Origin: Petrimonas mucosa
GTDB lineage: Bacteria; Bacteroidota; Bacteroidia; Bacteroidales; Dysgonomonadaceae
Assembly: GCF_900095795.1 (NCBI RefSeq)
Contig: NZ_LT608328.1
Coordinates: forward strand, 372,001 to 436,000
Direction: 5' to 3'
DNA: 64,000 nt
Every line of letters starts with the position of its first letter. Position 1 is the stretch's first letter. The position numbers were made by a program, and so were the translations under genes. The notes under the pieces are model-generated. The model did no database searches, was not told the origin of the DNA, and saw only the letters and a program-made list of their open reading frames with translations. Below, one piece after another: positions 7,152 through 64,000 of the stretch.

Positions 7152-7157
7152 CTTGAA

Positions 7158-7193: not shown

Positions 7194-7194
7194 G

Positions 7195-9107: not shown

Positions 9108-9366
9108 TTGAGAATTTGTTAATCGGAAAATCATCTGGACGACTGTTAAATAACCGCTACCTGGAAAAGAGGGAGTTCTGTTTTTTATATCAAAAAGTAT
9201 ATATTCCCAGCTGGTTATAGTGTTTGATTATAAAAAACACTATTTTTAACTTCTCTTTCTTGATCGAAGGTGAAATTAATTTGAGAAACATGGCAACATT
9301 CAACAATTACAGGTTGACTCAACAGTTTAGACAGGGGGTGATTGCGCATCGTAGGTTAATGGCCGG

Positions 9367-9618: not shown

Positions 9619-9647
9619 ATAGTGACAAAGCAGATACTGGTTACATT

Positions 9648-11606: not shown

Positions 11607-11836
11607 CATCAGGCTTTACATAACTTTAAAGATACAGATTGGGGATACTGCTCAAAATTTACCCGGTTCTGTTTGTTGAATTTTCACTATTTCGGGTGCT
11701 TATTTTAGCAGACCTGAGTTGTTTTGATTATTTTTGTCTCTTTATTTCTGATCTTTATAGGAGGATAACAATTTCAGGCTAGAACGATCAGAATCCGATA
11801 TGCCAAATTTACTGTTTCAGATTAGAATTTGAATAT

Positions 11837-12253
11837 ATGATCATAGCTATTGATTTTGACGGCACAATTGTCGAACATGCCTATCCGAAAATCGGCAAGC
11901 CCATTCCCTTTGCGATTGAAACTCTCAAGATGCTGCAGAATGACGGTCACCAGCTTATCCTCTGGACCGTGCGCGAAGGAAAACTGCTGCAGGAGGCGCT
12001 CGATTATTGCTATCAGAATGGCATAACCTTCTTCGCGGTGAATGCGAACTACCCTGAAGAGAAGCGGGAAAACTCCCCTCGCAAATTGATGGCGGATCTG
12101 TTTATTGACGATCGTAATCTGGGAGGACTTCCCGATTGGGGGATCATCTACCAGATAGTGCAGGCTACTGCAAGGGGAGAGAACAACTTTGGCCTCTTCA
12201 GCGGGAACCAGTCAGAACCTGAAAAGCGAGGTTTCTGGAGCTGGTTCAAATAG
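11837..12253 (+). CDS. HAD-superfamily hydrolase (BT0820-like)
   Basis: A 138-residue single-domain phosphatase. Motif I is IDFDGTIVE (residues 5-13), with the nucleophile and acid/base Asp pair; motif II is TVREGK (about 48-53); the acidic motif is LFIDDRNLGG (about 93-102). The compact form without a cap domain matches the small HAD proteins of Bacteroides whose structures show general phosphatase activity. It is cytoplasmic, with no signal peptide. The last 8 bases overlap the 3' end of the convergent nuclease/phosphatase fusion gene. Substrate unknown. Confidence 0.8.
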   Translation: MIIAIDFDGTIVEHAYPKIGKPIPFAIETLKMLQNDGHQLILWTVREGKLLQEALDYCYQNGITFFAVNANYPEEKRENSPRKLMADLFIDDRNLGGLPDWGIIYQIVQATARGENNFGLFSGNQSEPEKRGFWSWFK

Positions 12254-26284: not shown

Positions 26285-28497
26285 CTTGGTTTATTTGTCA
26301 TTTGAAATTCGAGCAACCCGCCTTTCATGATCTCTTCATACTTGATGCTGTATGATTCAATTGGTTTTCCATTCAAATGTATTGCCTTCACATATTTGTT
26401 CTTTTCGGATAATCTGTTGGCTTTTATCGTAAATCGGTTTCCATTAGGTAAAGATAGGATAATTTCAGGTACTTGAGGTGCACCAATTACATATTTTCCA
26501 GATATGGGGTCAACCGGGTAGAAGCCCATTGCCGAGAAAATGTACCATGCAGACATCTGTCCACAGTCATCATTACCAACCAGACCGTCACGGTCGGGCA
26601 GGTAAAACCGGTCAAATATCTCCCTGATAATTTCTGCCGTGCGATCGGGACGGCCGGCAATGGAATATAAATATGCAATATGGTGACTGGGCTCATTCCC
26701 ATGTGCATATAGTCCTATCAAACCTGTTACATCGGGGACTGCTTCATGACCGGGCAGATCGTCGATATTTGTTTCAAATAGGGTATTCAGTTTTGTGACG
26801 AATTGCTCCTTCGAGCCGAACATATCGATCAAACCCTCTACGTCGTGTTGGACGTGCCATGTCCACTGCCATGCATTCCCCTCTGTAAAATCGCCCCCCT
26901 CCGACTCGCTGGTCAAGGAAAAGGGATTGAACGGCGAACGCCAGTTCCCCTGGGAGTCTCGTCCCCTTACCAACATGAGGCTCTTGTCATAAACGTTCTT
27001 GTAATAGGTTGAGCGTTTTGAAAAGAATCTGTACTCTTCCTCCCTGTTCAATGCTTTGGCCATCTGGGCAACACAGTAGTCATCGTAACTCGATTCCAAT
27101 GTCCGGGATACCGATTCAACCGAACTTACATCGAAGGGGAAATAGCCATATCTGTCGTAATTCGACCAGTCAGCCTTATTATGATCGAATGTCTGTGCAT
27201 GCCTGATAGCTTCGTAGGCAAATCCAGGATCAAAAGAGGTGTCGCCTTTAAGAAAAGCATCAACAATTACAGGTACGGCATGATTTCCTATCATGCACCA
27301 TGTTTCACGCATTCCATATTCATTGGTAGGCAGAAGTCCGACCTGTCTATGTCGTTCCAGCATTGATTTCACCAGTTTACTGTTTATTTCAGGATAGATG
27401 AGTGCCAAAAAGGGATGCAATGCACGATAGGTATCCCAAAGCGAGAAATTTGTATACATCTCACCTGTTTCACTTTTGTGCAATTTTTGATCCCAACCAG
27501 TGTAGAAGCCATCTACATCCGTGACCAGATTGGGCATTAGCAAGGCATGGTATAGTGATGTGTAATAAGATCTCTTCTGACCTTCATCCATCGCCTTGAT
27601 CTCTATTCTACTGAGGTAATTGTTCCAAACCTCTTCAGTCTGTGCATGAACCTGATCAAAATCCCATCCCGGCACTTCGGCATCAAGGTTCTTGATAGCC
27701 CCTTTCTCACTGGCCGTTGAAAGAGCGACTTTTACCAGTACGCTTTCCTGATCGCCTGTTGCAAACTGAAACAATAACTTGGTCAGTTTGCCGGAAACGT
27801 ATTGGCTATTTGATATTTCACCATCCTCATAAGAGCGGACCCGTGTGAATGGTTTGGAAAACCTGGCACAGAAATAGTAATGATGATCATCGATAAATCC
27901 GCTTGAGCGACGTTTGCCAACAACTGTTTGAGCATCGACAACCCTGATATAGCTTTCGGTTGTCTTGTCTCCAATACCGTGCTCCAGGTCAATCAATATG
28001 CCGGCTTTGGTGCTTGCCGGATAGGTATATCGATGGCATCCGACCCGTGGTGTGGCTGTGACTTCAGCCAGAATATTGTAGTCGTCGAGCTTTACTCGAT
28101 AATATCCTGGGCTTGCCTTTTCCGACTCGTTTGAAAAGGAGGAGCGATAACCGGTGGAGGTGTCGGTTTCTTCTCCTGCCTGAAAAGGGAGATCACCAAT
28201 AACTGGCATTATTAGAATATCTCCCATCTCGGCGGCTCCCGTACCGCTGAGGTGGGTATGGGAAAATCCAATAATTGATTTTGAATCTGTATGATATCCC
28301 GAACAGAACTTCCAACCATCGGTTCCATTATCAGGACTTACCTGTACCATTCCAAATGGAGTTGTTGCCCCCGGATATGTGTGTCCGGTGAATGCTGTTC
28401 CGATAAAAGGGTCAACGTAATCGGAGAGTTTCTGAGCCATCAGTATACTGTTCACCCAAGTGAGAAGCAGAAATAACAACCAAGTCTTGATTTTCAT
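26281..28497 (-). CDS. GH92 alpha-mannosidase (copy 2)
   Basis: About 738 residues from the ATG at 28497, which begins the signal peptide MKIKTWLLFLLLTWVNSILM; an in-frame ATG at 28509 adds four residues. No lipobox cysteine is present, so the protein is probably periplasmic rather than surface-anchored. Motifs: YVDPFIGTAFTGHTYPG, SHTHLSGTGAAEMGD, GDFTEGNAWQWTW (Glu near 539), HGNEPSHH and GNDDCGQMSAWY near 640, all intact. It overlaps copy 1 by 4 bases and resembles it along its length, which suggests a tandem duplication followed by divergence in localisation. The specificity (1,2; 1,3; 1,4; 1,6) cannot be stated. Confidence 0.93.
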   Translation of the reverse strand: MKIKTWLLFLLLTWVNSILMAQKLSDYVDPFIGTAFTGHTYPGATTPFGMVQVSPDNGTDGWKFCSGYHTDSKSIIGFSHTHLSGTGAAEMGDILIMPVIGDLPFQAGEETDTSTGYRSSFSNESEKASPGYYRVKLDDYNILAEVTATPRVGCHRYTYPASTKAGILIDLEHGIGDKTTESYIRVVDAQTVVGKRRSSGFIDDHHYYFCARFSKPFTRVRSYEDGEISNSQYVSGKLTKLLFQFATGDQESVLVKVALSTASEKGAIKNLDAEVPGWDFDQVHAQTEEVWNNYLSRIEIKAMDEGQKRSYYTSLYHALLMPNLVTDVDGFYTGWDQKLHKSETGEMYTNFSLWDTYRALHPFLALIYPEINSKLVKSMLERHRQVGLLPTNEYGMRETWCMIGNHAVPVIVDAFLKGDTSFDPGFAYEAIRHAQTFDHNKADWSNYDRYGYFPFDVSSVESVSRTLESSYDDYCVAQMAKALNREEEYRFFSKRSTYYKNVYDKSLMLVRGRDSQGNWRSPFNPFSLTSESEGGDFTEGNAWQWTWHVQHDVEGLIDMFGSKEQFVTKLNTLFETNIDDLPGHEAVPDVTGLIGLYAHGNEPSHHIAYLYSIAGRPDRTAEIIREIFDRFYLPDRDGLVGNDDCGQMSAWYIFSAMGFYPVDPISGKYVIGAPQVPEIILSLPNGNRFTIKANRLSEKNKYVKAIHLNGKPIESYSIKYEEIMKGGLLEFQMTNKPR

Positions 28498-28569
28498 ATT
28501 TTCTTGCATGATATTTATAAAAGCAATAATTATACAACTGTTTATCCCTATTTCCAGATTGAAATGAGC

Positions 28570-40382: not shown

Positions 40383-41821
40383 CAGTACTGACCGACTAAA
40401 AAATAAGGCGCAAAAAAGATAGGGACTTAACCGAAGTCTCGTCCCTAAGTTGTAAATTTGGATTGTCTAAAAACTAAATTTCCAACCATGGGCAAAGATA
40501 AGTCAAAAAATTTAGTCGGTCAGCCACTGTTCAAACAAATTGTGAAAATGTTGCCAAAAGATGAATTTGATCTCTTGGTGTCGAAGTGCGGGAGCGACCG
40601 TTACTATAAAACATTTTTTTCTTGGGAACAGCTTATAGTGATGCTCTTCGGCATCTTTTCACGTTGCGATTCCATGGGGGAAGTCTGTGACGGGATGCGG
40701 GCATTGGGTGGGAAGCTGAATTACCTTGGTATGGACGTGGCTCCTGCAAAGAGCACGGCGGGCGACGCTTTGCGTGATCGTGATGAAGAACTTTTCAGGC
40801 TATATTATTTTGCCCTGATATCCTATTTTCGTCCGCTTTTATCGGTCAGCCGAAAAAAAGACGTCAGTTTCGATGAGTTTTACGCTTTCGATTCCACCAC
40901 GATGACCCTTTTTTCACAAGTGATGCAAGGGGTGGGACGCAACCCCAAGGGTGAAGGCAAGAAAAAAGGAGGCATGAAAGTACACATGCTGACCGACGTG
41001 CACACGGAGACGGCCGTTTTTGCCAAGATCAGCGAGGCAAAAATGCATGACAAGAAGTTCCTGGCACATTTAAATCCCGGAAGGGGTAGCATGTTGGTCT
41101 TTGACAAGGCATATAATTACTACCTGCAATTTGCTGAATGGACACTACAGGGCGTGAATTTTGTTTGTCGCTTGAAGGATAATGCCAAAGTGCAGGTGCA
41201 GGAGGTTTTGTTTGAAAGGACGCTCTCCAAAGAAGAGTTCGGCGTTTACAAGGTCGAACACATCCATTTGGATTACAAACAAGATAAGCAGGTAAAAACG
41301 GTTTGTTTGCGATTGGTTCATTATAAAGATGAGCAGAAACGAAAATATAAGTTCATAACCAACAATTGGTCGATAACGCCCCAAGAGGTTGCTTTGATTT
41401 ACAAGTATCGCTGGACTATCGAGCTATCGTTCAAAAAATTGAAACAGAACTTTCAACTGCATTTTTTCTATTCGGATACGGAGAATGGTATAAAAACGCA
41501 GGTTTGGTGCACGTTGATCGCACATTTGTTGCTTCAAGTCATCCAGGTGGTGAATGAAAGCAAGAAAGCGTTCTCAACTATTGCAGCTTTGATAAGGATA
41601 CACCTGATAAGTCATTTGGAGTTGGCTTGGGTGGTGACCGAAGGCAGAAAGGCATACACTAAACGGGGAAAAAGACGGAACAAAAGTCCCACGGCCATAC
41701 AAATGTCGTTGTTTTAAAGGGGGTAGGTTTTATGAAAACAAAAAATGAAATTATAACAATATAGATATCTGATAATTATAAAAAGGGATCGGCAAAACGC
41801 AGGTTTTGTCGGTTAATAGTG
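40383..41821 (+). mobile_element. IS4-family insertion sequence, 1439 bases
   Basis: Imperfect terminal inverted repeats match at 14 of 18 positions: CAGTACTGACCGACTAAA at the left end (40383) against CACTATTAACCGACAAAA read inward from the right end (41821). Direct repeats of 9 bases flank it. One transposase gene fills most of the element. The intact gene, the clean duplication and the sharply split host gene indicate a recent insertion. Confidence 0.87.
40488..41717 (+). CDS. IS4-family transposase (DDE)
   Basis: A 409-residue transposase. The N-terminal region (about 10-75, QPLFKQIVKMLPKDEFD, KTFFSWEQLIVMLFGIF) is the DUF4372-type domain usual for these IS4 elements. The catalytic core shows YAFDSTTM (first Asp), LVFDKAYNYY (second Asp) and the Y-(2)-R-(3)-E signature in YKYRWTIELSFKKLKQ. 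The ATG at 40488 (MGKDKSK) is preferred to an in-frame TTG at 40458. Length and motifs are complete, so the enzyme may be active. Confidence 0.92.
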   Translation: MGKDKSKNLVGQPLFKQIVKMLPKDEFDLLVSKCGSDRYYKTFFSWEQLIVMLFGIFSRCDSMGEVCDGMRALGGKLNYLGMDVAPAKSTAGDALRDRDEELFRLYYFALISYFRPLLSVSRKKDVSFDEFYAFDSTTMTLFSQVMQGVGRNPKGEGKKKGGMKVHMLTDVHTETAVFAKISEAKMHDKKFLAHLNPGRGSMLVFDKAYNYYLQFAEWTLQGVNFVCRLKDNAKVQVQEVLFERTLSKEEFGVYKVEHIHLDYKQDKQVKTVCLRLVHYKDEQKRKYKFITNNWSITPQEVALIYKYRWTIELSFKKLKQNFQLHFFYSDTENGIKTQVWCTLIAHLLLQVIQVVNESKKAFSTIAALIRIHLISHLELAWVVTEGRKAYTKRGKRRNKSPTAIQMSLF

Positions 41822-41949: not shown

Positions 41950-42723
41950 CTACAGTTTTTTCAACGCCTCTTTCAGACAAGGGACACAGTTTGTTTCAAT
42001 ACCGTCCACTTTAAGATCGAGCAATTTTTTTGCATCATCAGGGTTATCAACTGTCCAGGCATAGATTCCCATTGCCAGGCTGTGAACAAAGTCAACAATC
42101 TCCCGATTGATCAGGGAGTATTTCATGTCAATGGCGTCAATATTGCTCTCTGCGGCTCTTTTAATATTCTCCTTCAAGTTATCCTCTTTGCCGATTAGGT
42201 AATGACAGCTGTGGTTCGGGAACATTTTCTTTGCTGCAACTATCACATCAAAATCAAAACAGATGATTGCCAGTTGACCTTCCGTGGAACTCTTTTCAAT
42301 CACCCGTTTCAAAAAGGGTAACCCCTCCACGCCACATTTCAGTTCAATATATAATGTTTTTGATGGGGGCACCATTTCAACAATCTCTTCAAAGAACGGA
42401 ATATGTTCATTCCTGTACTGTTCGCCTTTGAAACTGCCAACATCCAATAGTCTCAATGTATCGGAGATAGTCTCTTCAACAATGTACTCTTTTCCGGAGG
42501 TCCTTTTTGTATTGGAGTCATGGATAACCATGAGACGATTGTCTTTCGACAGGCGCACATCAATTTCAACTGCATCAGCTCCCTGGTCCCAGGCAAGTTT
42601 TACTGATGCCTTCGTGTTTTCCGGGGCATGGAGTGATGATCCCCTGTGAGAACTATACTCCACCTGGGCCTTTACGCTATGGCTTAAGCTGATAACAAGC
42701 AATGCGACAAGAAAATTTTTCAT
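41950..42723 (-). CDS. Exported glycerophosphodiester phosphodiesterase
   Basis: A 257-residue GDPD-family enzyme with signal peptide (ends VKAQ, residue 20). Active-site motifs: SHRGSSLHAPENT (first His), VEIDVRLSKDNRLMVIHD (Glu-Asp metal ligands and second His) and LYIELKCG. The TIM barrel is full length and ends KVDGIETNCVPCL. GDPD enzymes split glycerophosphodiesters to glycerol-3-phosphate plus alcohol; some act on teichoic acids or other glycerol-phosphate polymers. It lies 87 bases upstream of the split metallophosphoesterase and 59 bases behind the polyhydroxybutyrate-depolymerase-like gene, among glycan enzymes, so a glycerophosphate-modified glycan is one possible substrate. Confidence 0.88.
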   Translation of the reverse strand: MKNFLVALLVISLSHSVKAQVEYSSHRGSSLHAPENTKASVKLAWDQGADAVEIDVRLSKDNRLMVIHDSNTKRTSGKEYIVEETISDTLRLLDVGSFKGEQYRNEHIPFFEEIVEMVPPSKTLYIELKCGVEGLPFLKRVIEKSSTEGQLAIICFDFDVIVAAKKMFPNHSCHYLIGKEDNLKENIKRAAESNIDAIDMKYSLINREIVDFVHSLAMGIYAWTVDNPDDAKKLLDLKVDGIETNCVPCLKEALKKL

Positions 42724-42782: not shown

Positions 42783-43664
42783 TTATGGCTTGATAAACCG
42801 GCTGAAGAATTTCCATATCTCTTCGTTGGTGTCCATGTCATCCCTGCCCCATGTATGTCCGCCTCCGACAATCTCATACAGCCACACTTCACTGCCGTTA
42901 GTGCCGCCGGAAAACCGGTGTTTGATAATCTTCCGGTTGTTTGGTGCTTTTCCGGTTATGGTGTCGGTTTGCATGACTGTGCAGCGATTCTTTGCCGCAC
43001 AAAAGTGTACGGCAAGCGGCACGGGAAGATATTCGCCCCATCCCCCTTTATTTTCTGGATCGCCCAGCCATTCTGAAGTCCTGTCTTCAGTACCATGGAT
43101 CTCAATAAGTGAAACAGGGTGAGTGGAGGTGTCGGATTTGTAGAGCCAGTTTAGCATGAGACCTGCGACAGGTGCTACGGCTGCAAACAGTTCAGGGCGT
43201 TGTGCTGCCAACTGATAACACATCTCTCCACCGTTTGACATGCCTACACAAAATGCATTGTGGCGACTGAAACCATGTTTGTGTTGTAAATGACGTACCA
43301 GTTGGGTCAAGAATTCCACGTCATCAATCGTCATGTCGTGCTGGAAAGGGTAACCAACGTTCCAGCACATTTTGCCTCTACCGTCTTTCTCTCCCTGAGG
43401 ATAACAGACGGCAAACTGGTGACGGTCTGCCGTCTTGTTAAAAATTCCCGGGTCCGGTCCCCCGTAACCGTGCAACACAATAACCAGCGGAGCATTCTCC
43501 GGTAGATTATCGGGAATATGCAACCGATAAGTGCGTTCCAGCCCACCACACTTCATGGTGTATTCGGGGGTGTTGTCGGCTCTTGTAGTGCCGACTGTTA
43601 CGACAAATAAAAGAAGGCTGCACAGTGCGCTTCTTGCTGCGATGGATTTAGCAAATACTTTCAT
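42783..43664 (-). CDS. LpqC/PHB-depolymerase-like exported esterase
   Basis: A 293-residue alpha/beta-hydrolase with signal peptide (ends TRAD, about residue 30). It shows VIVLHGYGG (near 64, oxyanion hole), the nucleophile in GMSNGGEMCYQLA (about 141-153), the acid in IHGTEDRT (about 194) and the His in GGGHTWGR (about 270). Family members are polyhydroxyalkanoate depolymerases and feruloyl or acetyl xylan esterases (CE1-like). In a locus with PL11-GH105 and GH92, removal of acyl groups from a plant glycan is the better guess. Neighbours: GH92 copy 3 (69 bases upstream) and GDPD. Confidence 0.83.
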   Translation of the reverse strand: MKVFAKSIAARSALCSLLLFVVTVGTTRADNTPEYTMKCGGLERTYRLHIPDNLPENAPLVIVLHGYGGPDPGIFNKTADRHQFAVCYPQGEKDGRGKMCWNVGYPFQHDMTIDDVEFLTQLVRHLQHKHGFSRHNAFCVGMSNGGEMCYQLAAQRPELFAAVAPVAGLMLNWLYKSDTSTHPVSLIEIHGTEDRTSEWLGDPENKGGWGEYLPVPLAVHFCAAKNRCTVMQTDTITGKAPNNRKIIKHRFSGGTNGSEVWLYEIVGGGHTWGRDDMDTNEEIWKFFSRFIKP

Positions 43665-43733: not shown

Positions 43734-45926
43734 TTATGGCCGATCTTCTTTTGCTGTTCCAAATGTACGCGACGGAATGTTGCCCATCTCCAATTCCAAT
43801 GTTCCCCCTTGATTGATATCCTTGAAATGGATATAAGATTTTGTATAGGGCTTGCCGTTTAATCGGGCCGATTGGATATAGATGTTCTCACTGCTGTTAT
43901 TATGAGCAATCAGCCTGAACTCCTTTCCCCCTCCCACATTCATGGTTACTTTGTCAAAAAGTGGTGTGCCGATGATGAATTTTCCTCCCGACGGCTCGAC
44001 CTGGTAAAGGCCGATGGATGATAACACATACCAGGCCGATAACTGTCCTGCATCCTCGTTGCCACAGATCCCCCGGGGAGTGGCTGCATACAGCTTAGCC
44101 ATGACTTCACGCAGGTGATGCGCTGCCTTCCAGGGCTCCCCAGCGTAATTATAGAGGTAGATGATATGATGACTCGGTTCGTTACCGTGATAATATTGTC
44201 CGATGACACCCCCTTCATTGATGGTATTCGGTACTCCGAACCCCCCTTCGATGATAAAGATTGAATCCAGTTTTTTCACAAACTGCTGTTCACCGCCAAA
44301 TAGTTCGATCAATCCATGCGCATCGTGCTGTACATGCCATGTCCACTGCCAGGCGTTGCCTTCGGTATAGTCGCTGCCTGCCCCCTGCGGAGCCAGGCAA
44401 GGATCGAAGGGTTCCCTGAATTTCCCCTCGGTTGTTATGGCTCTCATAAAGCCGGTGGCCGGGTCGAAATGCTTTTGATAAGAGAGGCTCCTCTTAAGAA
44501 AAAAGGTGTAATCTTCTTCTTTCCCAAGTAGGTTGGCCAGTTGTGCACCACTGGCATCGGTCACGGCGAAATCCAGACATTGGGCAACAGAATGAATACT
44601 CTCTTTATCGTAAGGAATAAAACCATATTCATCCAGGAGAGGTTGTCCTCGTTCCTGGAGTAATGCCGAAGCCTTGATTGCATTATAGATTGCCTCCTTG
44701 TCCACATCAAAGCCTTTCAATGCAATATCGGTAATTACTGGAAAAGAGGGATTCCCGGACATGCAGAATGTCTCATTACCCATAAGGTGCCATAAGGGTA
44801 ACCTGCCGGTTTGTTCGAAGATTTTCAACATCGTGACAGCAAAATCTTTTTGTCGCTCAGGATGTATCAATGTTGCCAGGGGATGAACAGCCCGGTACGT
44901 GTCCCAAAGAGAGAGTACCGAATAGTTCACGAAATCTGCATTCCGGTAGATTTGACCGTCAGCCCCCCGGTAATCTCCATTCACGTCGCAGAATACCGCA
45001 GGGGCGACCATGGTATGGAAGAGGGATGAATAGAATATCGTACTTGCCTTTTCATCATTGGTGGTGATTCTTATTTTGCTTAGCTCTTTTTCCCACAGCT
45101 GATCTGCCTCAGCAACAACTCCATTGAAATCCCAACCACGATTTTCCCGCTCCATGTTCAATTTGGCGTTTTCCACGCTTACTGCAGATAGCCCAACTTT
45201 AATTTGCAGGCTCTGATGATCTTGGAGGTCAAAAGAGAGAATGCAAATGGTGTCGTTTACCATCTTTTTATTAAGGATGGGCAGTGAAAACAGGGCAGAA
45301 TAGAATACCTTTTGATCTTGAGCCCATCCTGTCGAGAACCGGTAGCCGGAAACTACCGTATCGTTCTCCTGCAACAGGCAACAATCTGTCATTCTATCAA
45401 AACCGATCCCTTGTCGTAAATTCAAGACTACTTTGCCGGTATCCACACCTGTCGGGAAGGTATAACGATGAAAACCGGTACGCATTGTTGCCGTCATCTC
45501 TGCCCGGATACCGCTCTTCCCTAAAACGACAGAATAGTAGCCTGGCTTGACCAACTCATCGTCGTGAGAGAAAAGCACTTCACGCTCTCTTTCATCCAAT
45601 ACCGGCATGAGCGATATATCTCCCAAATCTCCAATTCCCGTTCCGCTCAAATGTAAATGTCCGAAACCTATCACTATCGAATCGGAGTAATTGTATCCGG
45701 AACACCACTCTCCGCCACGTGGAGGACGTGAGTGTTGTGTAGGTCCAACCTGCACATGGCCGAAAGGCACATTTGCTGCCAGGAAGACATTCCCAAATCC
45801 GGCAGTTCCGATATAAGGGTCTACATGGCTGGTCAGGGGGCCCAATTCAGTGTGTGAGGTGTTCTTATGTATGCAGGATGATATCAGTAAGCAACAGATC
45901 ACAATGCCAAGAGATGGATGCTTCAT
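43734..45926 (-). CDS. GH92 alpha-mannosidase-like lipoprotein (copy 3)
   Basis: A 730-residue lipoprotein (LLISSC near residue 18). GH92 signatures: HVDPYIGTAGFGNVF near 34, FGHLHLSGTGIGDLGD, SDYTEGNAWQWTW (Glu near 520), HGNEPSHH near 585. The acidic motif reads GNEDAGQLSAWY (about 622) instead of GNDDCGQMSAWY in the other two copies, and SHTHLSG becomes GHLHLSG, so this copy belongs to another subgroup and probably has another linkage or substrate. Its ATG overlaps the stop of the PL11-GH105 gene by 4 bases, so the two are coupled. Confidence 0.9.
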   Translation of the reverse strand: MKHPSLGIVICCLLISSCIHKNTSHTELGPLTSHVDPYIGTAGFGNVFLAANVPFGHVQVGPTQHSRPPRGGEWCSGYNYSDSIVIGFGHLHLSGTGIGDLGDISLMPVLDEREREVLFSHDDELVKPGYYSVVLGKSGIRAEMTATMRTGFHRYTFPTGVDTGKVVLNLRQGIGFDRMTDCCLLQENDTVVSGYRFSTGWAQDQKVFYSALFSLPILNKKMVNDTICILSFDLQDHQSLQIKVGLSAVSVENAKLNMERENRGWDFNGVVAEADQLWEKELSKIRITTNDEKASTIFYSSLFHTMVAPAVFCDVNGDYRGADGQIYRNADFVNYSVLSLWDTYRAVHPLATLIHPERQKDFAVTMLKIFEQTGRLPLWHLMGNETFCMSGNPSFPVITDIALKGFDVDKEAIYNAIKASALLQERGQPLLDEYGFIPYDKESIHSVAQCLDFAVTDASGAQLANLLGKEEDYTFFLKRSLSYQKHFDPATGFMRAITTEGKFREPFDPCLAPQGAGSDYTEGNAWQWTWHVQHDAHGLIELFGGEQQFVKKLDSIFIIEGGFGVPNTINEGGVIGQYYHGNEPSHHIIYLYNYAGEPWKAAHHLREVMAKLYAATPRGICGNEDAGQLSAWYVLSSIGLYQVEPSGGKFIIGTPLFDKVTMNVGGGKEFRLIAHNNSSENIYIQSARLNGKPYTKSYIHFKDINQGGTLELEMGNIPSRTFGTAKEDRP

Positions 45927-48841
45927 TTTCTTTTTGTTAGAAATTCATTCTTCAATTTGGTATATTGATCGTAGAACATGACTGCGGAACCCAGTGCATA
46001 TTCCGTCCCATCTATCACTTTCCGCGCATAGTAATAACTCTTGTCACCTATACATGTACCATAACAAACGTTCGTAACGGTCAGGAATGCTCCTGTATCT
46101 TTTAAACTGTATTTCTCTATCCCCCTGAATGTGTTTTCAATTAGGGGGAAGTATCTATCGGCGTCCAGAATTCCTTCTGTAACTCCTAAAGCCATTGCAT
46201 AGGCAAACATTACTGTGGAAGAGCTTTCGATAAAATTGCCTTTTTCACCTGGATAGATGGGTAATTGGTACCAATGGCCAGTTTTTTCATCCTGAAGTTT
46301 GGAGAGCGTCTGCATCATCTTGTCAAATTTAGCTTTAAGCTCTCTCTTCTCCGGCATGCTCTCCGGCATTACCCGCAAGGTATTGGCCAAGGTCATGGCT
46401 ACCCATCCGTTGCCCCGACCCCAGAATTCATTGTTCCGCCTTTTGGGATTATCTGCCCATCCTGGCATGCAGCATTTGTCGTCGAAAGCAATATCGTCAT
46501 TGTCCCATCCATGGTACCATAATCCGGTAGAGGGATCCTCAAGTTTTTCGGCGTGTGTTCTCAATTGCAAGGCTACCTCTCTTAAAAAGTTCTCATCTCC
46601 CGTCAAACGGTACATCTCTATAAGAAAAAGGCCGATCATGTAGACCGTGTCGTCCCACAGCTCAATCACGTTATCTCTGTGCGAAACGCCACCGTTAGAC
46701 GATCTTGGGATTTTGAGGTATTGATTGTACAGGTCGAATGCTTTCTCCCTATATTGATCTTCCCCTGTAACACGTGCCAAAAAGGCTATCCCGAATCCCG
46801 AGGCAAGCGCATTGGGGTGGATGCCGGAGGCTCTCTCCATATTGACATCCATTGCCTTACGGATATAAGCCAGCATGGTCTCTTTTTGGATGTTGTTTTC
46901 CCAACGGTCGACAATCGACCGCAAAAGGGTTGCTTGAGACCAGTCCCAGTGATATGTCTCTGCCGGGTGATACTGCTTGATTGCATAATCCATGAGCTTA
47001 TCGCCCCACTCGGGAATCTCCTGTCGGTTTAAAGCGAAGGTTCTGCTTTTGGAATTCCCATCCAGTCCCAGTTGAGGATAGACTGGATACCCCACGGAGA
47101 AGGATGCTACATCCATTCGATATTGGTGGTTTTGCATCAGGCAGACCTTTTTAGTGCTGGCGGGGATCGTAGTTGAGTATATGCGTATTTCACCTGGTAG
47201 TCCAACGATAATCTCTTCCCTCCAGTCACCATATATGTCGGCTATCAGTCCGCCTTGAATATCCCTTTCAAGTGTATCTCCATTAAACTTGAAGAGTCTC
47301 CCGTTATGCCATAATTCCTTTGTTTCATCGGCATCCCACCATAGAGGCAATGCATTATCCATTCTTGCAGGATCGGGCAACCGTTCACCTTTACTTGAGT
47401 AAAAGAAGGGTCGGGTATCCCCGCGGTCGGGTTGGGTATAGCATTCCATTCCAACCTTCGTGGGGTCATAATCTCCCACGGTTGCACGGTCATGAATGTG
47501 ATTGGTAGGTTGATCATAGCCCCAGATAATTTCGCCAGTGGCAGCATCCACTAGGCAGACACCATTTTTCTCGGCACCTGTCTCGATATTGAAGAAGATC
47601 TCCAGACCGAGACGTTCGGGGTCGATATCGGCAATCACTGCACAGTCGTTATGGTTCAATCCAATTCCCCATAGGGCTGTACCGTCATGATCGAGTGCAA
47701 AAGTACCGGGCACTACTTCGTCTTTTCCGTCTTCATCAATATCTGCTATGGCCATTCGATGACCACCCTGTCCCCAGTATCGCCTGTTCATCTCCGAGCT
47801 TTCCCAGTACCATTCCGTTTTCAGCTCCATATCCATCGCTTCTACCCTGATGTGACCGTAAGTTCCCCGTTGCATCAGCAGGCTGGGTTTTTTCCCATCC
47901 AGGTAAGCCAAACCCAGAAAATTTCGACTTGTCCAGTCGTAACTTCTTCCGATTTCAATATTTCGTGGTAACCACTCTCTTTTTTTCACTATTTTCCCCG
48001 TCTCGCCATCAAGCTTGACCAGGTATTCCGGGCCAGAAATGACCCGACCATCAGGTTCACGAGGGTCTTCTTCTCCCGCCTTCGTATACACTTCCGCTTT
48101 TCCATCACCGTCGAGGTCGAATACCATGAATGGAGCAAACCATACGCCTGTCTCTATGGCCCAACCCATATCATATCGCCACATAAACTCTCCCTTTGAA
48201 CTGTATGCTTCCAGTTTGTAGGTATCCCGGCTTCTTTGCCAACACCCGATACATGTTCCCGGATCAACATGTACCATGGCATCACGAAGCACCACAAAAT
48301 CGTACGCCCCGTCACCGTCCAGATCACCGATGCCAATTTTTATAACCCCAACGTTCGGATTCTCCAGAAGGATTGAACGCGAGTTGTTGTTGCCCTGATT
48401 GAAGAAAACATATACTTCCCCTCCTGGAATCTCTTCTTCTTTTCCATTTATAATCCTGGTAAGTTTGTACAGGTGTGCTTCAAATAATTTAGGCATCTCC
48501 GCAGCTGGTCCGTGATATTCGCATCCCCTGTCTATATAGTTTGTTGAGTGGGTAATAGGTTGATCGTTGACTTTTACGTAATCGTTGGGTTCAACTGATC
48601 CAACCATTTTACGGTACAGATTGAAGGCAACATCTGATGGATCATCCTCCAGCAAGCGCCATCCGATATAGATCGAAGTATCACTGCGCGTAAGGGCTAT
48701 CAAACCCCGGTCGAGATACTCCTTCTGCAGATCACCGCTTTCGTGGCGAAGCGATGACGTTTTGTCTGCACAACTCATGTTTCCGTGCAGTAAAACGATT
48801 AATAATACTATTTTCCCAAAATTAAACAATGTTTTATTCAT
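45923..48841 (-). CDS. Two-enzyme fusion: PL11 rhamnogalacturonan lyase and GH105 unsaturated glucuronyl/galacturonyl hydrolase
   Basis: About 972 residues from the ATG at 48841 (48850 is an alternative), with a lipoprotein-like signal (GNMSC near 25). Residues about 40-625 are a PL11 lyase: DRGLIALTRSDTSIYIGWR, then calcium-binding loops DLDGDGAYDF, DLDGDGKAEV and DIDEDGKDEV of the eight-bladed propeller, ending SKSRTFALN. Residues about 630-972 are a complete GH105 (alpha/alpha)6 domain: WDDTVYMIGLF with the catalytic Asp, GLWYHGWD, WGRGNGWVAM and ESSSTVMFAYAMA. PL11 cuts rhamnogalacturonan I by beta-elimination, leaving the unsaturated uronic acid that GH105 removes, so the chain joins two consecutive steps. 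Coupled to GH92 copy 3 by a 4-base overlap. Confidence 0.9.
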   Translation of the reverse strand: MNKTLFNFGKIVLLIVLLHGNMSCADKTSSLRHESGDLQKEYLDRGLIALTRSDTSIYIGWRLLEDDPSDVAFNLYRKMVGSVEPNDYVKVNDQPITHSTNYIDRGCEYHGPAAEMPKLFEAHLYKLTRIINGKEEEIPGGEVYVFFNQGNNNSRSILLENPNVGVIKIGIGDLDGDGAYDFVVLRDAMVHVDPGTCIGCWQRSRDTYKLEAYSSKGEFMWRYDMGWAIETGVWFAPFMVFDLDGDGKAEVYTKAGEEDPREPDGRVISGPEYLVKLDGETGKIVKKREWLPRNIEIGRSYDWTSRNFLGLAYLDGKKPSLLMQRGTYGHIRVEAMDMELKTEWYWESSEMNRRYWGQGGHRMAIADIDEDGKDEVVPGTFALDHDGTALWGIGLNHNDCAVIADIDPERLGLEIFFNIETGAEKNGVCLVDAATGEIIWGYDQPTNHIHDRATVGDYDPTKVGMECYTQPDRGDTRPFFYSSKGERLPDPARMDNALPLWWDADETKELWHNGRLFKFNGDTLERDIQGGLIADIYGDWREEIIVGLPGEIRIYSTTIPASTKKVCLMQNHQYRMDVASFSVGYPVYPQLGLDGNSKSRTFALNRQEIPEWGDKLMDYAIKQYHPAETYHWDWSQATLLRSIVDRWENNIQKETMLAYIRKAMDVNMERASGIHPNALASGFGIAFLARVTGEDQYREKAFDLYNQYLKIPRSSNGGVSHRDNVIELWDDTVYMIGLFLIEMYRLTGDENFLREVALQLRTHAEKLEDPSTGLWYHGWDNDDIAFDDKCCMPGWADNPKRRNNEFWGRGNGWVAMTLANTLRVMPESMPEKRELKAKFDKMMQTLSKLQDEKTGHWYQLPIYPGEKGNFIESSSTVMFAYAMALGVTEGILDADRYFPLIENTFRGIEKYSLKDTGAFLTVTNVCYGTCIGDKSYYYARKVIDGTEYALGSAVMFYDQYTKLKNEFLTKRK

Positions 48842-48956
48842 GACATCCATTAAGTGCGTTCTGAAACTTTAGGGTTGCTATCGGGTCGATTCTTTTTCGT
48901 CTATTCGAAAAGCAGCGACAGTGGATCAAGATCATTAAACTTAAGACCAGCTCACC

Positions 48957-49042: not shown

Positions 49043-50586
<1,544 letters not shown>

Positions 50587-50603: not shown

Positions 50604-51497
50604 TTAAGCGACATTTTTAATTAATTCTTTTTTAAGATTATACTGATCCCAAAATTCATCAATGGTTAAGTTACCCAATGCTGAGAATCTCCTTTTATGA
50701 TTATACCAGGATTCAATATATTCAAATACATGCAAGCGCATTTGCTCTCTTGTTTTGAGTTTGGTACCATAGACCAATTCAGATTTGAAAGTTTTGAAAA
50801 AGCTTTCAGCCACTGCATTATCCCAACAATTTCCCTTTCCACTCATACTTTGCTCCAGCTTCAAGGATTTCAACAGGTTTACAGTTTGTTTGCAGGCATA
50901 TTGGATGCCCCGGTCAGAATGAAATATCATTCCTTCTCCAAAAGGTCTGTTCCTGTTGGCCATCCTTATGGCAGGGACTACGGTATGGGATGCATTCATA
51001 TGATCGCTTATGGACCATCCGATCAGTTTGCGGTCAAAAAGATCCAGCACACAGGTCAGATAAAGAAATCCATCCTTACACGGAATATAGGTCAGGTCAG
51101 AGACACACGCTTTTACAGGCTCATTCTGATTAAACCTGCGATTCAGCAGATTTGGAGCAACCTTATAGTTGTGAGAGGCATCCGTCGTCACTTTGAATCG
51201 TCTCGAGAGTTTGCTGCGCAAGCCCATTTTCCTCATGTGGCATGCTACAGTGGTTCTCGAGACAGGAGTTCCGGATACCTGCAAATCCTTTGCCAGCCGG
51301 GGGCTTCCATTGCGTCCCCTGGCAGCAAAATAGGCATCTCTGATCTTTTCGTCCAACTCCATATATTTGCGCTTACGTTTGCCCTCCGGATCTTTAAGCC
51401 AGCGGTAATAACTGCTCCTGGGGACTTTCAATACTTTACACATCACCTCGATCGTCCATTGTTTCGAGTTATATTCCTTTATAAAGAGATAGATCAA
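50604..51497 (-). CDS. IS3-family transposase OrfB (DDE integrase domain)
   Basis: A 297-residue catalytic subunit. HTH_21-like region near the start (MELDEKIRDAYFAARGRNGS), then the rve integrase core with CVSDLTYIPCKDGFLYL (first Asp), IFHSDRGIQYA (second Asp) and GNCWDNAVAESFFKTFKSEL (Glu). The frame begins with TTG inside orfA's stop region (TTGA overlap). A slippery A7G string (complement of 51526-51533) in orfA would allow a -1 frameshift into this frame, which is open from there on, so the usual OrfAB fusion can be formed. Intact. Confidence 0.9.
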   Translation of the reverse strand: MIYLFIKEYNSKQWTIEVMCKVLKVPRSSYYRWLKDPEGKRKRKYMELDEKIRDAYFAARGRNGSPRLAKDLQVSGTPVSRTTVACHMRKMGLRSKLSRRFKVTTDASHNYKVAPNLLNRRFNQNEPVKACVSDLTYIPCKDGFLYLTCVLDLFDRKLIGWSISDHMNASHTVVPAIRMANRNRPFGEGMIFHSDRGIQYACKQTVNLLKSLKLEQSMSGKGNCWDNAVAESFFKTFKSELVYGTKLKTREQMRLHVFEYIESWYNHKRRFSALGNLTIDEFWDQYNLKKELIKNVA

Positions 51498-53870: not shown

Positions 53871-54570
53871 TCACGGCTCTGGTTCCAATATCTGTCTGTC
53901 CAGTTTTTTTGGTTCAAACAAAAATCTATGGGCTCCCCCTTTAACTTCCACAACGGTTTCCGTATAAATAATAGCTGTCGTGAAGCCCTGCTTTATCCAG
54001 TATCCCCAGGATGGAGCCATCTCTTTTGTGGCCATTTGGCAAGCTGTTTCCACATAACCATAGTTTGACAACATCCGTGGTAGATATTTGCTCCCCGGTA
54101 GTCTAAAATCAAGGGAGTAATGATTTTCGACTACAGCACGGTTCAAGTTTGCTGCCACCTTCTCGACGAATTCATCAGGGACCAGTGCGACGGCTTGTGC
54201 CGTTTGTGATCCATTGGCATAAAGAACAATCTGCCGATTCAGGTATTTCTCATTGATCAGCTCCTTCAATTTTTCTGTTTTGTTTTTATATGTGGTCTCC
54301 TCATTGCCTCTAATCTTCGAGAAACGATGCATGAGCAGGATAATCAGGTAATAATAACAAGTGGAGGTGAAATTGCTGGGTGTTTGGGTATTATAATAGA
54401 CCCAATCGCCAAGACCAACAGTTATGGTTACTTTCGTACCTCGCTCTCCGGTCAATTTTATTTTCGCATACTCCCCAAAGGTTTATCCCCATATCAAAAA
54501 CAATGACTGAATCACCAAATGATAGCATCGAGACAGGTGTAAATAGCAAGTTTTGACCATCTTGGATAAA
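53871..54570 (-). pseudogene. Collapsed GH78 alpha-L-rhamnosidase relic
   Basis: Pieces of a GH78 enzyme survive in order. From about 54570 one frame reads LLFTPVSMLSFGDSVIVFDM and GINLWG (rhamnosidase N-terminal beta domain); after a frameshift it reads FGEYAKIKLTGERGTKVTI, then jumps directly to the catalytic-domain motif GLGDWVYYNTQTPSNFTST and on through ANGSQTAQAVALVP, GSKYLPRMLSNYGYVE and PSWGYWIKQGFTT. It then jumps again to a C-terminal TVVEVKGGAHRFLFEP. So there are two in-frame internal deletions and one frameshift. The open part (53871-54455) could encode 194 residues from a TTG, but without signal peptide and without the acid residues of the barrel. Confidence 0.7.
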
Positions 54571-59383: not shown

Positions 59384-60991
59384 TTATTGAAGATCTGCAT
59401 TGTTGTTTGCCAGGTTTGGATTCAACATTACCTCCTTGCTTGGGATGGAAAGGAAGTAATCTTTTTTGGTATAGGGCCTGAGCAGTTGATATTTCTCTTC
59501 CGGTTCTTCCCTCCATTCGGTAGTAGCCTTTTCTACAAGCTGTAGACGTTGCAGATCGAACCACCGGGCGGAGTATTCAAAGCCGGCGAACTCCCATGCT
59601 CTTTCCCATACAACACTGTCAATGAATTGCTCGGTAGTTAAATTGCTCACAGAGGCTTCTGTGGTTCCCAATCCCTTATAAGCCCTATTCCGCACATCGT
59701 TCAGACATTTGTATGCCAGTGCATCCGGTCCGTCAGTGCGTGCCTTGGCTTCTGCATATATCAGTAAAACGTCAGCATAGCGCGTGAAAATTATCGGGCG
59801 TCCACTATACCAGGAAGCACTTAGATCCATCCTGGTCCGCCAGTTGCTATTGGGATCATCTCGATTTTCCCACTCCCATCCAGGCGTAAAGTTGTCGGCC
59901 CATAACTTTCTGTACGCAGGATGTTTGGCCTTCAAATCGGTGTAGTAGTAATAGGTGCCATTGGAGTGATAGAAGTCGGTAACAAAGGTAAACTCCTTGC
60001 GTTCTCCTTCAGGGAAACGGTTGAAAAAGCCTAGTTCAGCGATCATTGATTCCCAACCGCCGAACTCGATCGGCCTGCTTGGGTTGGGTGATCTAACCGT
60101 ATAGTCATCTGGCGTATGGTCAATCCAGAAGATTGGTTCGTCCAACTCCCTCGAGCCAGCCTCCCAATAGGGATCGAATACTTCCCAGAAGTGTTCGCGC
60201 AAGGCATAACCAAACTCATTGGCCCGATCGATTACCTCTTTCGCCTTATCTCTGGCCAGGGCGTAATATTCTGTTCCGCCGTTCACCGGATAGCCGGCCA
60301 TTTGCAGATATACCAATGCCAGGGTCGATTTTGCAGCCCCTTTGGTAGGTGCCCCGTTAGCCATAAATCCGTCCCATTTAACGGGTAACCACTCTTCGGC
60401 GAATTTGAGATCCGAAACAATCAACTCATACACATCCTTACTCGAAGAGAGTGTAACTTCTCTTTTCGAGTCAGGATCGTATGCCGTTGTAACCAAGGGG
60501 ATGTTGTTAAAGAACCTGACAAGCCAGAAATACATAAAGGCCCGGATGTAATGTGCCTGTGCGGCCAATGCATTAAGTCGAGCCTCTGGTACAACACCCG
60601 TTGCGTTTTTATAGTTGTTTATGATCGTGTTTGCCTGATTAACGGTGTTGTAAGCGCGTTCATATCCCCGCTGTACATCGGTATCCCCACCGGTTGTAAT
60701 CGGCATATTGATTTCCATTTCATGATAGTAAACACGCTGATTTCCAGTTCCTATGATATCATCAGAGGCTGCAAACTTAATCTCCATGCTTTCATACGGG
60801 CGATTGATTGCCACGTCAAAAATACCATACATTCCGTTGATCAACAGCTGTATTTCAGCTTCATTGTTACACAAGTTATCAGCGAACAACTGGCCTTTAG
60901 GCTCTTCTGCCAGGAATTTATCATTCGATTGGCAAGATGTAAAGGAAACAATGACAGAGAGTATAAAAATTATATGGATGTATTTTTTCAT
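59384..60991 (-). CDS. SusD/RagB-family glycan-binding lipoprotein
   Basis: A 535-residue surface lipoprotein with lipobox FTSC near residue 20. The N-terminal FLAEEPKGQLF and INGMYGIFDVAINRPYE are typical of SusD N-termini. The helical TPR-like core follows with LNALAAQAHYIRAFMYFWLVRFFNNIPLV (given here as its conserved region, about residues 133-161), and the C-terminus has PIIFTRYADVLLIYAEAKAR and VVWERAWEFAGFEYSARWFD. SusD caps its SusC partner and captures oligosaccharides at the cell surface. It lies 26 bases behind susC. Confidence 0.
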   Translation of the reverse strand: MKKYIHIIFILSVIVSFTSCQSNDKFLAEEPKGQLFADNLCNNEAEIQLLINGMYGIFDVAINRPYESMEIKFAASDDIIGTGNQRVYYHEMEINMPITTGGDTDVQRGYERAYNTVNQANTIINNYKNATGVVPEARLNALAAQAHYIRAFMYFWLVRFFNNIPLVTTAYDPDSKREVTLSSSKDVYELIVSDLKFAEEWLPVKWDGFMANGAPTKGAAKSTLALVYLQMAGYPVNGGTEYYALARDKAKEVIDRANEFGYALREHFWEVFDPYWEAGSRELDEPIFWIDHTPDDYTVRSPNPSRPIEFGGWESMIAELGFFNRFPEGERKEFTFVTDFYHSNGTYYYYTDLKAKHPAYRKLWADNFTPGWEWENRDDPNSNWRTRMDLSASWYSGRPIIFTRYADVLLIYAEAKARTDGPDALAYKCLNDVRNRAYKGLGTTEASVSNLTTEQFIDSVVWERAWEFAGFEYSARWFDLQRLQLVEKATTEWREEPEEKYQLLRPYTKKDYFLSIPSKEVMLNPNLANNNADLQ

Positions 60992-61017
60992 AATGAAATT
61001 TTTTTTAAAATGAATAG

Positions 61018-64000
61018 TTAATATTCAATGGCTACCCCAAATGATATACTTCTGGAGTTCGGATAGGCAAACCAGTCCATTCCCGAATTCATGTCATCGT
61101 TGGTGGAACTGATTTCCGGATCATATCCTTTGTACTTGGTAAATACCAGCAAGTTTTGTGCACTAAGTGAGAGTCGCAAAGTGGCAAAAGAGACGACACT
61201 TTTCGGGATTCGGTAGCCCACACTGAGATTGCGCAGTTTCACATAACTCCCATCCTCCACATACTGTGAAGACAAGGGAATCAGGTGACTGTTCCCTATC
61301 CTGGCAAATTTTGCGTTGGGATTACTGGGTGTCCACCTGTCTTTTGAATCCTTATGTGTGTATAATTGTGTGAAGTCAATTCGTTCGGTTGCCACAAGAT
61401 AAGCCCAGTTCATGATATCACGGCCATGCACCCCTTCAAACAGAATATTGAAGTCGACATTCTTGATGGAGATGTGGTTGTTGAAACCCCAGGAGAACGG
61501 CGCATTTGTGTTTCCAATAACCTGCTGGTCGTCAGAGTCATAAGCATTATTTCCATTCAGGTCTTCATATCGGTAATCACCCGGCTGCGCACCATATTTG
61601 GCTGCCTCTTCTGCCTGATTTTCTTGCCAGATTCCGAGATATTTCATCCCGAAAATTGTACCGATGGGTTGACCCGGCATTAAGACGAACGGGCTGGTTG
61701 AGGCCAGACCGGGAGCATAACCTGCTCCGTAGATTCTTGCTTCTTCTCCCAGATCCAGCACCTTATTCCTGTTAAAGGCTCCATTCAGGTTGATGTCGTA
61801 CGACCAATCCTTTGTTTTAAGGATGAAGTAATTCAGGTTAAACTCAAATCCCTCATTTCTAACGGAACCAACATTTGAGATTACGCTTGTCCTGCCATAT
61901 TCAGAATCACCTCCGGCATAAGCGGGGACAGCCAATGGAGCCAGCAGGTCGACAGTCTTCTTGTTGTAATAATCGAGCGATAAAGATAGACGGCTGTCGA
62001 TCAGGGTAAAGTCGGCGCCCACGTTCAACTGTTTGGTCGACTCCCATTTCAGGTTGGGATTGCCGCCAATCTGGGAAATGTAGCCAGACTGGATAGCTGA
62101 TCCACCCCAAAAGAATCCCATACCTCTCAGCGGAGAGTATGTGGCATATGATCCTACAGCCTGGCTTCCAGTAACACCATATCCTCCACGAATCCTGATA
62201 TTTTGGAACAGATCCTGTTCTTTCATGAATGCCTCTTCCGAAAGCCTCCATGCTAAAGAGAACGACGGGAAATAGCCCCAACGATTATCTCCCCTGAATT
62301 TGGATGAACCATCTGCACGATAGTTAACCGTCAGATAATAGCGGGAGGCATAATTGTAATTAATGCGGCCGAAATATGAGCGTAAAGCATTGTCTGCCCA
62401 TCCCGATCCTACTCCAATATAGGGGGCAGCCAGCCCAAGATTGTTCCAACCCACCGATTCAATGGGTAGCCTGTCAGCACTTGCCGAGAAACTTTGACCT
62501 TCATACTTGGTCTGCTCGAAGCCGACCATTGCAGAAAAATCATGATTATTTGCAAATGTCTTACTATATGTCAAGAATGCATTTGTCAACCAGTTCTTGT
62601 TGTCGTATGAATACTGATCTGCCCGTGGATAGAGTCTGTTATATTCGAGTGACTCAAATTCACGGGTGCCACCATTCGATAATGAGATCAATGCTTTTGC
62701 ATTCAATGTGAGGTCATCGGTGATTTTAAACTGAAGGTTGCCAACTCCTGTAGCGCCATTTCCGTAGTTTCGCTGGTGTGCTTCTGTCATCAACACCGGA
62801 TTCATTAACGTGCCTGATCCCACTCCCAGTGGCGTATACCTGCCATTTTCATCGTAAATCGGTACAGTTGGAGAAAAGGCTACCGCTGCCATTAAAGGTA
62901 TGGCTGTCTTACTTCCCCCTTGCGACAGTTCGGGATTGAGGTTATCGTTGTGGCCTGCACTCGCCTCTACCTGTACTGTGAGTCGATTGCTGAGATCCAT
63001 ATCAACTTTGGCTTTCAACCCGTAATCGGAGGCTTCCGTATTTCTAATGGTTCCGGTGTTGTCGTTGTAGTGAGTGGTTATATGGTAGCGAATATCTTTG
63101 CTCCCTCCGGAGAAAATTACGCGATAACTCTGTGACAGACCGCTCTGCAGTATGGCATCCTGCCAATCTGTACCACCGCCGTTTTTGAATTTCTCAACCT
63201 CGGCATCAGTGAATGGATAAGCTCCAACGCTTTGGTTGAATTTTGCAAACTCATAAGCATCCATCAAATCATACCGTTTGCCAATGGTATTGATTGAGAA
63301 ATCGGAATAAAACTCCAAGGTTGGTTTCTTCTGGGATCCCCTTTTTGTTGTTACCAGGATAACTCCATTGGCTCCACGGGAGCCGTAAATTGCCGTAGCA
63401 GAAGCATCTTTTAGGATTTCAATGGATTCTATCTCATACATGTCGGGTAGTGACCCATAATTGCCATCTACCACTATCAGGGGATCGTTTGATCCCATTA
63501 ATGAATTTGCACCCCTTACACGAATGATTGGAGCTACTCCTGGAGCCGCGTTACTTTTTCTGATGGTGACTCCCGGAGCCTTTGCTGCAAGGATGGAGTT
63601 GGATGAGCTTGAAGCCATATTGATAAAGTCACGCGAAGATACCGAAGATACAGCTCCGGTCAAATCACTTTTCTTCATTGTACCGTATCCAATTGCAACT
63701 ACTTCCTGCAATGCAATGGAACTTTCAGACATCACCACATTGATGATCGTTTTGCCAGCTACCGGAATCTCCTCTGTTTCCATCCCTACAAACGAGAAGA
63801 CAAGAACCGCATTTTCCTGGACATTGATCAGCTGATACTCGCCATCGATGTTGGTTGTTGTCCCCTGATTGGTGCCTTTGACAGAAATTGTCACACCCGG
63901 GATTGTTTCTCCTGATGCATCGGTGACCCTGCCTTTGACCGATTTTGTCTGTTGCACATCGGAAATTTCATTCTTTTCCTCAGATCTGTTGCTGGTGTAA
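61018..64000 (-). CDS. SusC/RagA-family TonB-dependent outer-membrane transporter, cut by the window edge
   Basis: The frame is open from the stop at 61018 to base 63999, so about 993 residues are seen and the signal peptide and true start lie outside the window. Visible order: a carboxypeptidase-regulatory-like beta domain (VKGRVTDASGETIPGVTISV), the plug with the SusC signature (VVAIGYGTMKKSDLTGAVSS, PIIRVRGANSL, DPLIVVDG, GANGVILVTTKRG) and the long barrel ending SISFGVAIEY with a terminal aromatic. It imports oligosaccharides captured by SusD, powered by TonB. The remaining N-terminal part outside may include a TonB box or STN domain; this cannot be judged. Confidence 0.93.
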   Translation of the reverse strand, partial: YTSNRSEEKNEISDVQQTKSVKGRVTDASGETIPGVTISVKGTNQGTTTNIDGEYQLINVQENAVLVFSFVGMETEEIPVAGKTIINVVMSESSIALQEVVAIGYGTMKKSDLTGAVSSVSSRDFINMASSSSNSILAAKAPGVTIRKSNAAPGVAPIIRVRGANSLMGSNDPLIVVDGNYGSLPDMYEIESIEILKDASATAIYGSRGANGVILVTTKRGSQKKPTLEFYSDFSINTIGKRYDLMDAYEFAKFNQSVGAYPFTDAEVEKFKNGGGTDWQDAILQSGLSQSYRVIFSGGSKDIRYHITTHYNDNTGTIRNTEASDYGLKAKVDMDLSNRLTVQVEASAGHNDNLNPELSQGGSKTAIPLMAAVAFSPTVPIYDENGRYTPLGVGSGTLMNPVLMTEAHQRNYGNGATGVGNLQFKITDDLTLNAKALISLSNGGTREFESLEYNRLYPRADQYSYDNKNWLTNAFLTYSKTFANNHDFSAMVGFEQTKYEGQSFSASADRLPIESVGWNNLGLAAPYIGVGSGWADNALRSYFGRINYNYASRYYLTVNYRADGSSKFRGDNRWGYFPSFSLAWRLSEEAFMKEQDLFQNIRIRGGYGVTGSQAVGSYATYSPLRGMGFFWGGSAIQSGYISQIGGNPNLKWESTKQLNVGADFTLIDSRLSLSLDYYNKKTVDLLAPLAVPAYAGGDSEYGRTSVISNVGSVRNEGFEFNLNYFILKTKDWSYDINLNGAFNRNKVLDLGEEARIYGAGYAPGLASTSPFVLMPGQPIGTIFGMKYLGIWQENQAEEAAKYGAQPGDYRYEDLNGNNAYDSDDQQVIGNTNAPFSWGFNNHISIKNVDFNILFEGVHGRDIMNWAYLVATERIDFTQLYTHKDSKDRWTPSNPNAKFARIGNSHLIPLSSQYVEDGSYVKLRNLSVGYRIPKSVVSFATLRLSLSAQNLLVFTKYKGYDPEISSTNDDMNSGMDWFAYPNSRSISFGVAIEY

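Follow-up and report, generated by a model that had tools for sequence, protein, structure and literature searches.

The closest described systems to the gene analyzed here are the PL11 rhamnogalacturonan lyases YesW and YesX of Bacillus subtilis and the GH105 unsaturated rhamnogalacturonyl hydrolases YteR and YesR. For the PL11 active site, PMC8787155 assigns an Arg and a Lys to the carboxylate and a set of His, Asp and Glu residues to Ca2+; in Bo3128 and Bo4416 it gives two His, an Asp and a Glu as the residues that bind Ca2+. For GH105, PMC4528949 describes YesR and RhiN as also carrying Trp and Asn at the positions of YteR 41 and 88, a change thought to shift the pH optimum (the tyrosine at the first position is numbered Tyr40 in one sentence and Tyr41 elsewhere in that text). 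Two domains in one chain for consecutive steps on a uronate-rhamnose polysaccharide are described in PMC8511951 for P36 of Formosa agariphila, in which a sulfatase (S1_25) and a GH78 domain serve the ulvan pathway.

In the window, that is, the whole stretch of 64,000 nucleotides of Petrimonas mucosa DNA that was analyzed, one genuine gene unites a PL11-type domain and a GH105 domain. It resembles P36 in its two-domain design but uses different catalytic families. The domain combination is new, but its type, a lyase joined to a GH88/105 domain within a single polypeptide, is already known. Two genomes of the same family encode chains (L048 440-3415, 992 aa; L049 2118-5000, at least 961 aa) with a PF14099 lyase, a rhamnogalacturonase/pectate-lyase-like domain and Glyco_hydro_88; these are like the fusion in that a polysaccharide lyase is followed by a GH88/105 domain in the last position, but they use another lyase family and include the extra pectate-lyase-like domain. 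The fusion would be a clear example of successive catabolic steps brought together in a single protein. Because named relatives encode the same enzyme types separately, any gain from tethering is measurable by comparing the fusion with the separate pair from Bacteroidia MS495-7.

The fused gene and its joint

The fusion gene (45923..48850, minus strand) is a single open frame of 975 aa with no internal stop anywhere; translation can start at the ATG at 48850 (975 aa) or at a second ATG at 48841 (972 aa), and the stop is at 45923. The N-terminal hydrophobic segment ending in HGNMSC (48770..48841, minus strand) is, judged by eye, a probable lipoprotein signal. The PL11-like half (residues 39-589; 47075..48727, minus strand) contains RGI_lyase at residues 39-107 (55 bits; cut-off 27.8) and RGL11_C at residues 170-589 (277.9 bits; cut-off 27), and the GH105 half (residues 618-963; 45953..46990, minus strand) is matched by Glyco_hydro_88 (224.5 bits; cut-off 26.6). 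Among solved chains, residues 39 to 589 or 593 align with YesX (E 5e-70), 4cag (another PL11, E 3e-67) and YesW (E 2e-66), and residues 618-953 align with YteR (E 2e-36). The fusion of the two enzyme types in one polypeptide, which the sequence-only reading had proposed, is thus borne out by an uninterrupted frame with all three Pfam domains above their cut-offs, and both domains are, as had also been proposed, of full length.

The joint can be compared with the locus of Bacteroidia MS495-7 (L004), which encodes, on one strand, a PL11 protein (6604-8490), a GH106 rhamnosidase (8487-11255) and a GH105 lipoprotein (11268-12455). The L004 PL11 and GH105 homologues are 66-67% and (by blastp) 68% identical to the halves of the fusion and lie in the same order and on the same strand; however, they are separate genes, each product starts with its own Cys-ended signal, and the rhamnosidase gene lies between them. 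The fusion tracks the L004 PL11 sequence almost to its C-terminus, continues with approximately 12 unaligned residues and then enters the mature part of the GH105 protein; the junction (residues 599-610, SRTFALNRQEIP; 47012..47047, minus strand) contains neither a stop nor a second signal peptide. Compared with L004, the fusion lacks the PL11 stop and the spacer, and also the GH105 start codon together with the Cys-ended signal, which is 22 residues long in L004. Because the entire GH105 signal peptide is gone as well, a missed stop or a single wrong base cannot explain the fusion. A sequencing or assembly error that merged two genes, which the sequence-only reading had itself named among the findings that would refute its claim, would be in keeping with the recovery of just one copy of the fusion, which is therefore without independent confirmation; however, the P. 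mucosa genome is assembled into one contig with a completeness of 99.88%, the GC level is even across the joint, and more than a stop has disappeared there. We therefore reject an artefact as very improbable.

Split counterparts, origin and rarity

In the PL11 tree (26 rows, 25 of them different), the window half is sister to proteins from MS495-7, MS502-39 and three Tannerella-MAG genomes (support 100/100); in the GH105 tree (20 rows), in which the program flagged long branches, the other half falls beside the same genomes together with one Odoribacteraceae MAG (support only 86/92). The agreement between the trees of the halves favors the view that genes from a single lineage were fused, rather than acquired independently, and the joining of neighboring genes is the likely origin. 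The pN and pS values relative to L004 are 0.222 and 0.818 for the PL11 half (599 codons) and 0.208 and 0.799 for the GH105 half (363 codons), with both pS values near saturation; they show strong amino-acid constraint on both halves, part or all of which may predate the fusion.

MS502-39 (L005) encodes a 106-aa PL11 stub (RGI_lyase only) that ends 22 bp ahead of its GH105 gene, and its full-length PL11 sits on a different contig from that GH105 gene; PL11 and GH105 genes have thus probably been rearranged with each other repeatedly. The stub and the GH105 gene together occupy 7989-9516 of that locus, as another rearrangement of the same two gene types. Near the L005 GH105 gene are LacI, ROK-kinase and SIS-type genes with 57%, 66% and 63% identity to genes at 33.9-36.6 kb of the window, consistent with descent of a gene cluster within a single lineage. 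The top PL11 and top GH105 matches are on different contigs in each of the three Tannerella-MAG genomes, so tight PL11-GH105 linkage is not general among the relatives. Adjacent but separate PL11 and GH105 frames occur in 10 loci, two of which are repeats (L065 repeats L021 and L066 repeats L017).

The two genes had been described as usually separate; this holds, since they are split in the closest relatives and a search for the combined architecture found both domains in one frame, that of the window, across 145 loci (partly duplicates of one another) with 126 PL11-bearing and 52 GH105-bearing open frames. Within the frames read, the fusion is rare and so far single. The genomes searched were 101 from the family, samples of 393 from the order and 395 from the phylum, 294 from the phylum of a Phycisphaerae relative, and smaller sets of 2, 7 and 9, with overlap between the sets; L004 is known from its locus and lies outside these whole-genome searches. 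The order, phylum and Phycisphaerae-phylum searches retained strong matches only (E 1e-60, 1e-60 and 1e-50) and scored at most two candidates per genome (at most three in the order search with RGL11_C and at most eight in the family search); because of the strict E-values and the few candidates per genome, fusions built on distant PL11s could escape this survey. PL11 frames of at least 780 aa among the matches listed were fetched and scanned for GH105, which was found in none besides the window's; among long frames with GH105 only, the reading covered L048 and L049, and others (e.g., G879:C158, G879:C206 and G057:C69) fell outside it.

Additional searches gave the same picture. None of the 317 plasmid records with a match had one place spanning 80% of the query, and none of the 12 loci from a contig scan with one genome per species had both halves in a single frame. 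Searching the P. mucosa genome with the fusion returned three places, the fusion gene itself and two that match the GH105 part only, and RGL11_C matches that genome once at E 1e-40 or better. For the nine other genus members listed, six have no match and three have a best E of 7e-20 or weaker; none has a PL11 this strong. A search of the open-access literature for the fusion under its exact names found no paper.

One candidate for a second fusion, G499, was listed as an open frame of 1042 aa, but two stop codons divide its PL11 from its GH105 domain, and it was rejected. Other Pfam partners of PL11 in nine long frames are GH28 (L145), a sulfatase-modifying domain (L143), CBM6, laminin-G, BACON and sorting tails. 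The GH28-PL11 frame (L145 2787-6062, 1092 aa), from the same Bacteroides stercorirosoris genome as L010, has a separate Glyco_hydro_88 gene just downstream, and the L143 frame (2055-4790), from the Phycisphaerae-phylum sample, joins a sulfatase-modifying-factor-type domain to a distant PL11-like domain.

The two catalytic halves

The GH105 half retains most active-site residues of YteR: Asp143 (the acid/base, D731 in the fusion), His132, His189 (H777), Trp141, Met147, Trp211, Arg213 (R809) and Trp217; the solved YteR chain 2gh4 is the D143N form. It differs in three positions, with W634 for Tyr41, N677 for Asp88 and Arg for Lys133, and these Trp, Asn and Arg residues are common to the 13 close relatives aligned with it. 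The Trp/Asn pair at 41/88 is the one that PMC4528949 reports for YesR and RhiN; unlike YteR and YesR, however, this domain is the C-terminal half of a fusion, lacks its own signal, and has Arg in place of Lys133. Its structure model is mostly helical, the helices with good confidence, and among solved structures it is matched best by YteR with its unsaturated disaccharide.

We aligned the PL11 half with YesW and 24 locus proteins that we picked from the frames so as to span the identity range. We take YesW positions 363, 399, 401, 422 and 595 to be those of the Ca2+ ligands and the stacking Tyr, and the residue types on the YesW chain agree. At these positions the window half has, like YesW, the Ca2+ ligands H361, H397, D399 and E420 and the stacking Y585, and all five are invariant in the 25 distinct rows. 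Elsewhere in the site it departs from YesW in part. The window half lies outside the YesW group (YesW and six further rows), across a branch of length 1.07 (100/100), in a divergent set of 19 rows (18 distinct, the window's among them) from Bacteroidota genomes and a Phycisphaerae MAG, whose deep branching order is weakly supported (48/4). In the column of YesW Lys535 (in an Asn-Gly-Thr-Lys loop), Lys is present in all seven YesW-group rows and in none of the 18 divergent rows, the window having Q529. Arg452 of YesW is kept as R452 in the window and in just two other divergent rows (3/18), and Asn152 is kept in two of the 18 but not in the window. The divergent rows have near-invariant residues of their own (in 17 or 18 of 18), including P194, Y208, E230, W234, P237, H448 and G550; the YesW group differs at these columns, with R, H, Q and D (one row with A) in place of E230, W234, P237 and H448. 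The RGL11_C score is 277.9 bits for the window half vs 771 (L034) and 813 (L058) for YesW-group rows.

By sequence, then, the PL11 half belongs to a group that is related to PL11 and altered at the substrate site, and it is not a standard rhamnogalacturonan I (RG-I) lyase. We know of no activity for any member of the divergent group. Pfam labels this branch rhamnogalacturonan lyase although it lacks the Lys to which substrate binding is assigned, and we regard the branch as a more interesting point than the fusion itself. The structure model of this half has very low confidence: the mean pLDDT of the fusion is 49.5 and the PL half is mostly below 50, because the alignment used for the model had two usable PL11 relatives, and Foldseek comparison of the PL half with YesW/YesX gives TM-scores of 0.14-0.15 by query length; the fold of this half is therefore assigned from sequence.

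The absence of Lys535 from 18 of 18 divergent rows, the retention of Arg452 in just three of them (the window's included), and the group-specific E230, W234, P237 and H448 could also mean that the PL11 half has ceased to act as a lyase and is instead a binding module, or another kind of enzyme, from which the GH105 half receives its substrate. We consider this improbable: none of the 25 distinct rows varies in the four Ca2+ ligands or the stacking Tyr, the group conserves near-invariant residues of its own, as expected of an active enzyme, and pN is far below pS. The sequence-only reading had named loss of a catalytic residue in one half as evidence against itself; an active-site Lys is indeed missing, but the Ca2+ ligands are intact.

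Another alternative is that the PL11 half is an ordinary YesW/YesX-type exo- or endo-lyase for RG-I, fused to a YteR-type hydrolase. In its favor, GH106 lies between the two genes in L004, a truncated GH78 alpha-L-rhamnosidase fragment (53871..54455, minus strand; profile positions 145-307 of 339) lies upstream in the same gene run of the window, and the genome contains a rhamnose isomerase match. In addition, the window half has an insertion (approximately TQPDRGDTRPF) at a place that is a loop in exo-type YesX and a gap in YesW. The loop of exo-type YesX makes the lyase release disaccharides; if the insertion acts in the same manner, the PL11 half would release disaccharides, a natural substrate of the GH105 half. 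The long, fully supported branch that separates the half from the YesW group and the absence of Lys535 and Asn152 argue against an ordinary enzyme, so we hold this alternative to be plausible at somewhat less than even chances. The same rhamnose-related genes are the reason that RG-I may nevertheless be a substrate. Thus, of the earlier proposal of consecutive steps on RG-I, the lyase-then-hydrolase domain pair stands, but the assignment to RG-I lacks support as worded, with a PL11 half that is outside the YesW group and lacks the Lys.

The explanation that we judge probable is a bifunctional cell-envelope enzyme, a lyase and an unsaturated-uronyl hydrolase, born of the joining of a PL11 gene and the GH105 gene that followed it. 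The source would have been a gene run of the PL11-(GH106)-GH105 type, from which a deletion or rearrangement would have removed the PL11 stop, the intervening DNA and the signal peptide of GH105, leaving a single lipid anchor for both activities. The PL11-like half is predicted to cleave a uronic-acid-containing polysaccharide by Ca2+-assisted beta-elimination, so that the new non-reducing end would carry an unsaturated uronyl sugar; the GH105 half, tethered to the lyase, is predicted to remove this sugar and free the next residue, probably rhamnose. The activity of each half, their order of action, the location and any benefit of tethering are all predictions, and from the gene context we infer a rhamnose-uronate backbone, RG-I or similar, as substrate. 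The rhamnose isomerase match and a KduI-family match in the genome speak for this explanation, and the missing carboxylate Lys of YesW-type enzymes weakens it.

A bolder version, which we regard as unlikely, is that the PL11 half represents an uncharacterized subfamily with a rebuilt site for another uronate polysaccharide (e.g., with rhamnose- or mannose-glucuronate), operating with GH105 and GH92 as an assembly on the envelope; the GH105 domain in cis and a co-translated GH92 would then dismantle the product to unsaturated uronate and rhamnose or mannose.

GH92 and the gene neighborhood

The GH92 gene (43734..45926, minus strand; 730 aa) starts within the stop of the fusion gene (ATGA), with a 4-bp overlap. 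Its product resembles solved alpha-mannosidases (E 2e-172) and contains the motifs TEGNAWQW and GNEDAGQ; five solved GH92s shown have GNDD (three) or GDED (two) where it has GNED. The Glu of TEGNxW and the last Asp of (N/D)(D/E)D, which we take to be functional residues, are both present. The sequence-only reading had called this GH92 atypical and coupled to the fusion; the overlap supports coupling, but the protein looks ordinary, with motifs within or near the range of the solved enzymes. The link between pectin and mannoside degradation that had been drawn from this pair does not follow from the overlap, which suggests co-translation of the two genes and not a metabolic connection.

Downstream on the same strand are genes for a PHB-depolymerase-like esterase (42783..43664) and a GDPD-family phosphodiesterase (41950..42723). 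Upstream are two transposase pieces (DDE_Tnp_1 and DUF772; 49043..50535, minus strand), an IS3-like integrase frame (50604-51497) and, on the strand of the fusion, SusD and SusC-type genes (59384..63957, minus strand); additional upstream genes encode a protein with only a sub-threshold GH99 match, a MocA-type oxidoreductase, an S15 peptidase-like protein and a beta-helix protein. A further transposase lies at 40458-41717 of the window on the plus strand.

In a Rikenellaceae genome (L095 7712-12170), a GH105 of the same group is fused behind an AP_endonuc_2 (xylose-isomerase-like) barrel and is directly followed by a GH92 gene; this single case of GH105-GH92 adjacency is too little for claiming a link. 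The L095 GH92 reads TEGTPKHYTW where that of the window reads TEGNAWQWTW. Elsewhere in the window (24050-28509), two adjacent GH92 genes also have a 4-bp overlap.
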